Shown here: positions 53,680-60,264 of the stretch, one piece after another
Layout: every line of letters starts with the position of its first letter
Numbering within the stretch: the stretch's first letter is position 1
Assembly (NCBI RefSeq): GCF_037031225.1
Contig: NZ_JAYEZN010000001.1
Location: 372,001-436,000, forward strand
Origin: Halorientalis sp. LT38
GTDB lineage: Archaea > Halobacteriota > Halobacteria > Halobacteriales > Haloarculaceae
Direction of reading: 5' to 3'
DNA: 64,000 nucleotides
Notes under the pieces: generated by a model
What the model was told of the DNA's origin: nothing
Databases searched by the model: none
Seen by the model: only the letters and a program-made list of their open reading frames with translations
Position numbers and translations under genes: made by a program

Positions 53680-54753
53680 ATGGATTTGTCTAGGCGGAAG
53701 GTCGTGACTGTCGGTAGCACACTCGTAGCGTCGGCAGGGCTGGCCGGCTGTTCGGGTGGCGAATCAGATGGAGATCCCGGAGAGAACGATACCGGCGACT
53801 CGGGGCCGCAAACCGAGTCACAACGGGACGCCTCGACGGCGACCGGTGAACCGGACTTCGAACTGAGGGGGTTCGAGGTCCAGCCGAGAATGCTCGCGGT
53901 CGGAGACGAGATGGCTATCGACACGAAGGTCGAAAACGTCGGGAGCGGACCGGGAATCGCCCGGTTCGAGTTCACGCTCGGGTCGGCGGAGTTCTCGTGG
54001 GAGAGTGACGAGATCGGCGCCGGTGAGACGTCAGCGGACCTGCGGATAACGGCCGAGGTCCCGGACGTCGAGTCGAACCGTCACGATTTCGGCGCCGACC
54101 TGAACGGCGACCGAGTCGCAACCGTCCCAGTCGATGTACTGCGTGAAGGCGAACCCTCGAGACCGGGGCTGTACGGATCCTTCGTTTCAGCCACGCGGGC
54201 GGACGTGTCACGTGGCACCGCGCGCCTGCTTGCCTTCAGCCGGAACGACGATACCAGTGGAGAAGATGTCGAAATCGGCGAGATCGGACAGTTCGGTTCA
54301 GAACCCCTCCTCGACGGAGAGTACACCGTTCGCGTCACGTACCTCTCGGGGACCGTCTCGGAATTCGACGGCGTTCCGGATATCTACGCGGCCGAACGGG
54401 GGCGCGAAATTCGGGAGGACGCGGTCGTGCTCGGACAATACACGCTTCCCGAAGCGTATCGGACAGACGTTCGGCTGGTCGACGAGTCCGGCGACCCAGT
54501 CAGAGGTTTCACGCCGTCCGTTCGAGACGCGAATGGGAACGGGACCCGGACGTTCACGACGAACGAGGACGGCTATCTCGTCTCTGAAGCGCGCTCGGAG
54601 TCAGGGCTCACTCTCCCGCCAGAGGACGGATCGAACATCGTCGTCGACGCGACCCCCTCCTCGGGCGGACCGCCCGAACGGTTCGGAAAGATATACGGAT
54701 CACCCGAGAGAGACGAATTCGAACTGACCGTCTCCGATCCGGATCGGTTCTGA
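53680..54753 (+). CDS. surface lipoprotein with CARDB-like domain
   Basis: 357 aa. A Tat-like signal (SRRKVVTVGSTLVASAGLAGC) leads to a lipobox Cys, followed by an acidic Gly-rich linker. A beta-sandwich near residues 60-150 resembles CARDB (DTKVENVGSGPGIARFEFTLG). The remaining 200 residues have no family I recognise. The gene stands alone in a region of more A/T-rich DNA before tRNA-Ser and may be accessory. Confidence 0.7.
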   Translation: MDLSRRKVVTVGSTLVASAGLAGCSGGESDGDPGENDTGDSGPQTESQRDASTATGEPDFELRGFEVQPRMLAVGDEMAIDTKVENVGSGPGIARFEFTLGSAEFSWESDEIGAGETSADLRITAEVPDVESNRHDFGADLNGDRVATVPVDVLREGEPSRPGLYGSFVSATRADVSRGTARLLAFSRNDDTSGEDVEIGEIGQFGSEPLLDGEYTVRVTYLSGTVSEFDGVPDIYAAERGREIREDAVVLGQYTLPEAYRTDVRLVDESGDPVRGFTPSVRDANGNGTRTFTTNEDGYLVSEARSESGLTLPPEDGSNIVVDATPSSGGPPERFGKIYGSPERDEFELTVSDPDRF

Positions 54754-55011
54754 CTCGACAGTTGGTCCGTCCAGCCGCCGGTGTTCGCGTCTGTTGTCGC
54801 TCCCGCCTCCGATCGGGCCCCACCGTCCTCGGAGCCTGAGACAATACCTTCAAGTTCGTCCCCTTCGGATCTATTCACACGCCCCGCGACGAGCGAAATC
54901 GGTCGTTTCGAGCCTATTCAACGTAGGTGCGTTAGGGTAGCGAATCACCATCGTTGTCCTGACAAGACCGAGATGATCGCATGGCTGCGGCGGGGTTGGA
55001 AGTGTCAGTTC
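54754..55011. other. 258-nt intergenic stretch before tRNA-Ser
   Basis: Lies between the CARDB-like lipoprotein gene and tRNA-Ser. No gene is supported; a 112-codon frame through this stretch continues into the tRNA and is spurious. The promoter of the tRNA should lie near its right end. Confidence 0.5.
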
Positions 55012-55095
55012 GGTGGGATAGCGAAGTGGCCTAACGCGACTGCCTTGAGAGCAGTTGTCCTCACGGACTCTGGGGTTCGAATCCCCATCCCACCG
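55012..55095 (+). tRNA. tRNA-Ser(UGA)
   Basis: Acceptor GGTGGGA (55012-55018) pairs with TCCCACC (55088-55094), discriminator G at 55095. The anticodon loop CTTGAGA gives anticodon TGA. The long variable arm and a T-arm (TGGGG-TTCGAAT-CCCCA, 55071-55087) are typical of class II tRNA-Ser. CCA is not encoded. No intron is seen. Confidence 0.95.
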
Positions 55096-55268
55096 TCGGT
55101 TGTCACGAACAGTCCGTGAGTGACAACCAAGGAGATGGGATTCGAGCCCTGCCAGTCCCGCGAGCAACGCGATCGGGACGCTGTCAGAGCATCGCTCTGA
55201 CAGAAGTCGCAGCGGCCGAGTGGAGTGAGGCCGACCGTCTCCACTCGGTTCGAATCCCCATCCCCCCG
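55096..55268 (+). repeat. tRNA-Ser tail element: hairpins bounded by inverted and direct T-arm copies
   Basis: Immediately downstream of tRNA-Ser. The parts are, in order: a 9-bp stem at 55098-55128; an inverted T-arm copy TGGGATTCGAGCCC (55136-55149); stems GTCCCG/CGGGAC (55155-55179), CTGTCAGAGC/GCTCTGACAG (55181-55203, 10 bp) and CCGAGTGGAG/CTCCACTCGG (55216-55248, 10 bp); then a direct copy of the tRNA 3' end. All these stems are perfect. No protein is encoded. The same plan follows tRNA-Thr at 60033. Confidence 0.75.
55247..55264 (+). repeat. 18-nt direct copy of tRNA-Ser 3' end
   Basis: GGTTCGAATCCCCATCCC is identical to 55074-55091 inside tRNA-Ser (T-arm and acceptor start). It is 173 nt downstream of the original and resembles an attachment-site duplication. 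No cloverleaf can be built around it. Confidence 0.85.
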
Positions 55269-55316
55269 TATTCGTCCCGCAGAACCCATATCAGGCTCGA
55301 ACGCGTAGTAGCAGTA

Positions 55317-59958: not shown

Positions 59959-60032
59959 GCCAGGGGAGCTTGGGCGGTCCAAGCACCCGACTTGTAATCG
60001 GGAGTTCGTGGGTTCAAATCCCACCCCTGGCT
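59959..60032 (+). tRNA. tRNA-Thr(UGU)
   Basis: Acceptor GCCAGGG (59959-59965) pairs with CCCTGGC (60025-60031), discriminator T at 60032. The anticodon loop CTTGTAA gives anticodon TGT. D-stem GCTTGG/CCAAGC and T-arm GTGGG-TTCAAAT-CCCAC are all well formed. CCA is not encoded. The gene lies close downstream of a GNAT gene on the same strand. Confidence 0.95.
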
Positions 60033-60206
60033 TCGACGCGCTCACACTTCGTGAGCGCGGCGAGCCGTCTGGGATTCGAAGGAGAGAAGTCGTGGTTCGA
60101 AAATCGCCGAGGCGATTTTCGTCATCACGAAAGAGCGCGAGCGCTCTTTCGAACGACAGTGCGACCGACGGGAGTGACCGTCTTCGCGTTGTTCGAATCC
60201 CACCCC
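60033..60206 (+). repeat. tRNA-Thr tail element: hairpins bounded by inverted and direct T-arm copies
   Basis: Follows tRNA-Thr directly. The parts are, in order: stem CGCGCTCAC/GTGAGCGCG (60037-60059, 9 bp); an inverted T-arm copy TGGGATTCGAA (60070-60080); palindromes GAAAATCGCC/GGCGATTTTC (60099-60120, 10 bp) and GAAAGAGCGC/GCGCTCTTTC (60129-60150, 10 bp), each with a two-nt loop; stem GACGG/CCGTC (60167-60182); and a direct T-arm copy. No protein is coded. The plan matches the tRNA-Ser tail at 55096. Confidence 0.75.
60191..60206 (+). repeat. 16-nt direct copy of the tRNA-Thr T-arm end
   Basis: GTTCGAATCCCACCCC differs from the tRNA-Thr sequence GTTCAAATCCCACCCC by one base, and lies 179 nt downstream of it. 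It is not part of a complete tRNA. Confidence 0.85.
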
Positions 60207-60264
60207 GAGCCGAACGTGCTGTACTTGGCATACATTTTCACTAACACGTTCGGTAGCTGTCGCT

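Follow-up and report, generated by a model that had tools for sequence, protein, structure and literature searches.

Structure of the tail behind tRNA-Ser(TGA)

The window, i.e., the whole analysed stretch of 64,000 nucleotides of the Halorientalis sp. LT38 genome (contig NZ_JAYEZN010000001.1, positions 372,001 to 436,000), harbors a tRNA-Ser(TGA) gene that is directly followed by a tail arranged in the order tRNA, h1, R', X with several hairpins, and R. The features of this locus, and of the second tailed tRNA of the window, are as follows.

55012-55095, plus strand: tRNA-Ser(TGA) gene, nt 1-73, CCA not encoded (Infernal, RF00005, 57.8 bits; ARAGORN gives 55011-55097)
55075-55095, plus strand: copied segment, tRNA-Ser(TGA) nt 53-73 (from T-loop start to discriminator), the source of R (by boundary alignment; edges identical in 143 copies from other genomes)
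55096-55268, plus strand: whole tail unit, from the first base past tRNA-Ser(TGA) to the end of R
55098-55128, plus strand: h1, trailer hairpin with tandem G.A (CACGAAC...GTGAGTG), a 9-bp inverted repeat
55136-55149, plus strand: R', inverted T-arm TGGGATTCGAGCCC, complementary to R across nt 53-63/64
55150-55247, plus strand: X, variable hairpin part with the core AGTCGCAG...GACCGTCT
55158-55208, plus strand: 51-nt double-hairpin insertion within X, with AGTC flanks
55248-55268, plus strand: R, direct copy of tRNA-Ser(TGA) nt 53-73 (20/21)
59959-60032, plus strand: tRNA-Thr(TGT), the second tailed tRNA (ARAGORN, Infernal)
60033-60211, plus strand: tail of tRNA-Thr(TGT), weaker; R' at 60071-60081, R at 60191-60211 (17/21, decayed)

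A tRNA-Leu(CAG) called by ARAGORN on the minus strand (54044-54136) lies within a long ORF, does not appear on the Infernal genome list and is probably false.

All four perfect stems that the initial annotation had placed behind tRNA-Ser are confirmed: one of 9 bp (55098-55106/55120-55128), one of 6 bp (GTCCCG/CGGGAC, at about 55155/55174 as read from the sequence) and two of 10 bp (55181-55190/55194-55203 and 55216-55225/55239-55248). The inverted partial T-arm reported there corresponds to R', and the exact 18-nt direct copy of the tRNA 3' end lies at 55247-55264, being part of a longer match of 22/23 nucleotides (55247-55269 against 55074-55096). The 125-bp unit proposed earlier (55136-55260) was delimited wrongly: the natural unit begins right after the tRNA and runs to the last base of the copy (55096-55268), since the comparison of empty and occupied tRNA-Leu(CAG) sites, described below, shows such limits. 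The folding energy of the Ser tail was -89.8 kcal/mol, as compared with -58.7 +/- 4.1 kcal/mol for shuffled sequences (z = -7.6, 0/200). In an Rfam scan of this tail the gathering score was reached by the tRNA alone, other matches up to E = 1 falling far short of their own gathering scores.

The X part of the Ser tail looks mosaic, because its left and right halves belong to different subtypes. Its 51-nt insertion is present in the tail of tRNA-Thr(GGT) as well (93% identity over 80 nt) and, as partial matches, forms a dispersed repeat in relatives, while the tail of tRNA-Arg(CCT) is devoid of it. The position and the motif of h1 recur in many other tails.

Tails across the genome and their match to the host tRNA

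A similarity search of the genome had led to other tRNA genes, and all 43 tRNA loci were compared. Copies of the tRNA's own nt 53-73 (at least 16/21, within 500 nt downstream) were found at 19 of the 43 tRNAs, 22 copies in total. At the stricter threshold of at least 18/21 within 400 nt, 15 of the 43 tRNAs had a copy downstream and none upstream, the own tRNA being the best match in those cases; the keys of other tRNAs reached at least 18/21 in 0.7% of control trials. These results at the stricter threshold show that the copies are not due to chance. The number of units per tRNA varies (0-4). In this genome Glu(CTC), Ser(CGA) and Gly(GCC) are followed by several units in tandem, the X parts of neighbouring units being unlike each other.

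The edges of R are sharp both in this genome and in 143 copies from other genomes: the copy runs from nt 53 through the discriminator, nt 73 (as the copies were selected on nt 53-73, only the drop in similarity outside this segment is informative). The cut site of RNase Z is expected to coincide with this end of R. R' pairs with nt 53 to about 64, leaving the acceptor part unpaired by R', and it follows the unusual T-arms of Lys(TTT), Gly(CCC) and Thr(GGT). On average R' fits the T-arm key of its own tRNA better than those of others (9.0/11 vs 7.9, p = 4e-11); the own key is unbeaten by any other in just 35 of 77 units, because T-loops are alike.

In this genome the tails of Lys(CTT), Gly(TCC) and Asp(GTC) share a near-identical GTTCAAATTCCGACCGACGGAGTCGGTCG...CGCGCACTCCC, fused to roughly the final 10 bases of the three different tRNAs, i.e., a variant end with a shorter tRNA copy. 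A sequence of another type, TCCACCTTTTTC...GAAAAACGTGGGCGAAAAA...GCGGATGC with hairpins in between, lies behind Arg(CCG) and Ala(CGC) of this genome and behind Arg(TCT) and Arg(CCT) of another genome (G006). A one-base T-loop insertion in the copy (GTTCACAATCC), which would spoil a real T-loop, recurs in tails of different tRNAs and species (loci L087, L085, L018 and L030).

Distribution among Halobacteria and other organisms

The R'..R pattern, searched for with no internal sequence, was found in 372 of 391 Halobacteria genomes representing 83 of 86 genera, where the reversed-pattern control gave no match. In a phylum-wide sample it was present in 76 of 81 Halobacteria vs about 10 of 312 genomes of other classes, and one inspected match outside Halobacteria looks like a piece of a tRNA-Leu gene. 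The X-core pattern was found in at least 120 stretches among 84,980 species genomes, all of them haloarchaeal among the matches listed. Of 83 X-core matches (80 loci listed), 75 have a same-strand tRNA no more than 700 nt upstream; among the remaining eight, several are close to the edge of the fetched stretch, so that the tRNA may be cut off. In 72 of these 75 cases, which involve 29 tRNA species, R matches the upstream tRNA at 18/21 or better (57 perfectly).

As for tRNA-Ser(TGA) itself, it carries from 0 to 2 units in many genera. The refuting condition set by the initial annotation, which concerned the tail in related genomes, gave a mixed outcome: a tail, be it intact, partial or decayed, is present at this tRNA in each of the seven same-genus genomes, but the X parts differ, the number of units is one or two, and other tRNAs vary in the presence of a tail even within the genus. 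The observation made behind tRNA-Ser(TGA) is real, and it is much larger than first noted. A word search of the open-access literature found no report of such tails.

Presence, absence and decay of units

tRNA-Leu(CAG), which stands just before a gene read as encoding ribosomal protein L18e, allowed occupied and empty sites to be compared. Among 30 genomes, 21 are empty (tRNA, short spacer, start codon), five are occupied and four are decayed or hold a remnant. In the occupied loci the spacer follows directly after R, one of them having an additional h1 remnant; the remaining four comprise two decayed units and two loci with an h1 remnant only. In L115 and L117 the R copy has lost its tRNA identity, the pairing with R' being still possible. 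When 42 tRNAs of two same-genus species were compared, 10 had a tail in both, and a further 10 and 9, respectively, had it in just one of the two. Judging from these comparisons, the units are gained or lost precisely as wholes; gain and precise loss would leave the same pattern.

Copies of a foreign tRNA are scarce. Only two candidates (L092 and L260) were found at 262 tRNAs; the former belongs to the neighbouring tRNA, and the latter remains a candidate. This scarcity means that either the target serves as the template of the copy when a unit inserts, or the lineages of units stay with their own tRNA.

Integrated elements in contact with tails

One genome contains, at tRNA-Glu, an element of about 4.9 kb whose two ends each carry the 3' half of the tRNA together with the entire tail. 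At tRNA-Tyr of Halopiger djelfimassiliensis, two identical units are separated by 1.75 kb, in which an integrase-like fragment lies. In Halomicrobium katesii, a complete tail stands behind a partial copy, TCCCGGCGAGTCCA, which itself comes after an intact reading frame of 335 aa; from its own sequence and its similarity to two fragments this frame is read as a putative tyrosine integrase. Gene-sized inserts between copies are confined to rare arrays: in Halorientalis marina, the copies at tRNA-Gly are 1.5 kb apart, with two genes between them that look PIN-like and HTH-like on inspection, and tRNA-Arg(CCG) of the genome studied here has a 0.9-kb insert bounded by a copy of the tRNA-Arg 3' end, with a 168-aa ORF (L023:1828-2334) for which a Pfam search gave no significant match. 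In this genome no tail has an integrase match next to it. Since the elements use the same sites as the tails, their integrases could move the tails as passengers.

A 4-kb region of a same-genus genome (G003:C1:2240734-2244630) contains about 20 or more tRNA-like matches on one strand, as some viruses and plasmids do.

Fold and strand

The length-limited selection of units comprised 217 units of 69-271 nt (median 123 nt). For one X subtype, represented by 64 units, two of the stem pairs are Watson-Crick in all 64 and in 63 units, respectively, by several pair types; over three stem pairs of this subtype the Watson-Crick fraction was 0.84 vs 0.41 with shuffled arms. G.T pairs in the covarying X stem are very few. 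The 217 units contain 309 GA/GA tandem loops on the tRNA strand, as compared with 2-10 of the mirror-image TC/TC, and the sense strand folds better in 156 units vs 59 in which the antisense strand does. The covariation in X and the position of the tandem GA loops on the tRNA strand provide us grounds to conclude that the folded tRNA-sense strand is under selection.

The strand-specific fold speaks for an RNA; a folded single DNA strand could, however, leave the same mark, as the excess of G.U over A.C is weak (95:70, and 19:17 in the R':R arms outside nt 53-54). When R' was scrambled in silico, to see if it shields the fold of the tRNA, the 5' acceptor strand paired with R in most constructs, scrambled or intact, which is probably due to the energy model rewarding extra multiloop branches.

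Comparison with known systems

The closest parallel in plan is the E. coli tyrT-tyrV/RttR system (RtT, RF00391). Like the haloarchaeal tails, which lie on the same strand 3' of the tRNA, RttR lies directly behind tRNA genes and terminates with a tRNA 3'-end copy (AATCCTTCCCCCACCACCA), the counterpart of R; its inverted arm GGGGAAGGAT pairs with the copy as R' does with R; it is also similar in its inner hairpins with two tandem GA loops and its tandem repeats. The annotated E. coli RttR ends exactly at the CCA of its copy. The tandem-GA helix in RttR RNA has been noted before (PMC8250186). The differences are that RttR is found in one operon in E. coli, whereas many tRNA species are tailed in each haloarchaeal genome, and that its copy begins near nt 58 and has CCA encoded, whereas the haloarchaeal copy begins at nt 53. 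The RF00391 covariance model, run up to E = 1, gave four matches in E. coli and none in either the tail of the window or the five haloarchaeal loci tested, so that the likeness is one of plan and not of detectable homology. The tails are best read as an archaeal analogue of RttR. The role of RttR is poorly understood.

The small mobile repeats and MITEs of Haloquadratum (PMC3119063) are likewise short, lack a transposase and combine inverted ends with a strong target preference. Their inverted ends are constant, whereas the arms of the tails follow the host tRNA and a 21-nt target copy is present; a simple MITE is ruled out by this tracking of the target tRNA.

Possible nature of the tails

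We consider it rather probable that the Ser tail is a member of a family, spread across the whole class Halobacteria, of mobile tRNA-anchored cassettes, whose structured tail RNA would form the 3' trailer of the pre-tRNA. The original proposal of a very small tRNA-targeting element or a structured tRNA-linked RNA was largely right and is now well supported by the class-wide occurrence, the strict association with tRNAs, the precise presence or absence of units and the conserved fold on the tRNA strand. We suppose that the T-arm/acceptor sequence is where recombination adds and removes units. The likely helpers would be the tyrosine integrases of tRNA-targeting elements, because these elements are found integrated next to tails and, in two cases, with a tail in duplicate. 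The tail would be transcribed as the 3' trailer of the pre-tRNA, and a cut by RNase Z after nt 73 would release an RNA with a tRNA-like 3' end at R, comparable to the annotated RttR. As to benefit, the unit may be mainly a selfish or near-neutral passenger. The hairpin might persist because tRNA maturation would suffer from a second, open T-arm or from a trailer left unfolded. These last two suggestions, passenger status and hairpin retention, are the weakest steps of the scheme.

The tails could instead be functional cis-acting RNAs, i.e., ancestral tRNA trailers serving 3' processing, termination or a small-RNA role, with a turnover reflecting ordinary loss and rearrangement and no mobility at all. 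Their near-universal occurrence in the class, the covariation and strand-specific fold, the R':R pairing that outlives the tRNA identity of R at Leu(CAG) in L115 and L117, and the annotation of E. coli RttR as an RNA all speak for this view. Yet tRNA-Leu(CAG) has no tail in most genomes, species of one genus have about half of their tailed tRNAs in common, adjacent units of one tRNA have unlike X parts, and decayed remnants occur, which makes this explanation unlikely.

Less likely again is that the units are integron-like cassettes, a structure-reading tyrosine recombinase recognising the R'-X-R hairpin in the form of single-stranded DNA, with the T-arm as the primary site and the unit as a minimal cassette. 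The tails do share with integron attC arrays folded palindromic sites with paired arms, an unpaired inner mismatch zone, a variable end, and unlike units arranged behind one anchor; the strand-specific conservation, the very few G.T pairs in the covarying stem and the rare arrays with gene-sized inserts between copies fit as well. However, the arms of the tails match the host tRNA, the copies doing so through the acceptor stem (of the two candidate foreign copies at 262 tRNAs one is explained), and there is usually no gene in the unit. The R-box consensus of attC is GTTRRRY / RYYYAAC, and the tail arm, GTTCRAA, departs from it by a C at the fourth place. Comparison of the integrase matches of this genome with its tRNA list revealed no integron integrase beside the tail arrays.

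We find it comparably doubtful that insertion at tRNA 3' ends involves a folded single strand, be it of RNA or of DNA, with nt 53-73 and the inverted T-arm copied from the target; such target-templated mobility would have no known relative.

Still less credible is the view that the tails are attachment-site scars, left behind when a virus or plasmid that had integrated lost its genes by deletion, with the copy as the distal att site. This possibility, also raised by the initial annotation, fits the sharp nt 53-73 copy, a tRNA 3'-end copy being the usual mark of integration, and elements do stand beside tails at tRNA-Ala, -Glu and -Tyr. In haloarchaeal tyrosine-integrase elements, which have tRNA attachment sites (review PMC8371274), the 3'-end copy similarly lies at the far side of the insert and the tRNA stays intact. 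The tails, on the other hand, have no integrase or cargo (in the 217 length-limited units), and the inverted arm and the structured X, both conserved, belong to the unit. Scars alone thus leave unexplained an inverted arm matched to the tRNA, a conserved variable hairpin and cargo-free units of a single architecture (69-271 nt in the size-limited set) behind at least 29 tRNA species; two core-motif patterns, moreover, had no match in 2.9 million viral contigs.

Finally, chance palindromes or replication slippage, in which the near-self-complementary T-arm (GGTTCGAATCC nearly equals its own reverse complement) would yield the inverted and direct copies, R' and R being both T-arm-derived, through template switching, hardly deserve consideration, since T-arms are universal and the signature is nearly confined to Halobacteria, and the X motifs and h1 are common to tails of different genera.

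The plan of one E. coli operon, seemingly a curiosity, has a counterpart behind many tRNA genes throughout a whole archaeal class, and one subject to precise gain and loss. The tails make their function, their movement and the choice between an RNA gene and a parasite of tRNA genes amenable to testing, and they bear on how tRNA ends, integration sites and small RNAs are annotated in haloarchaea.
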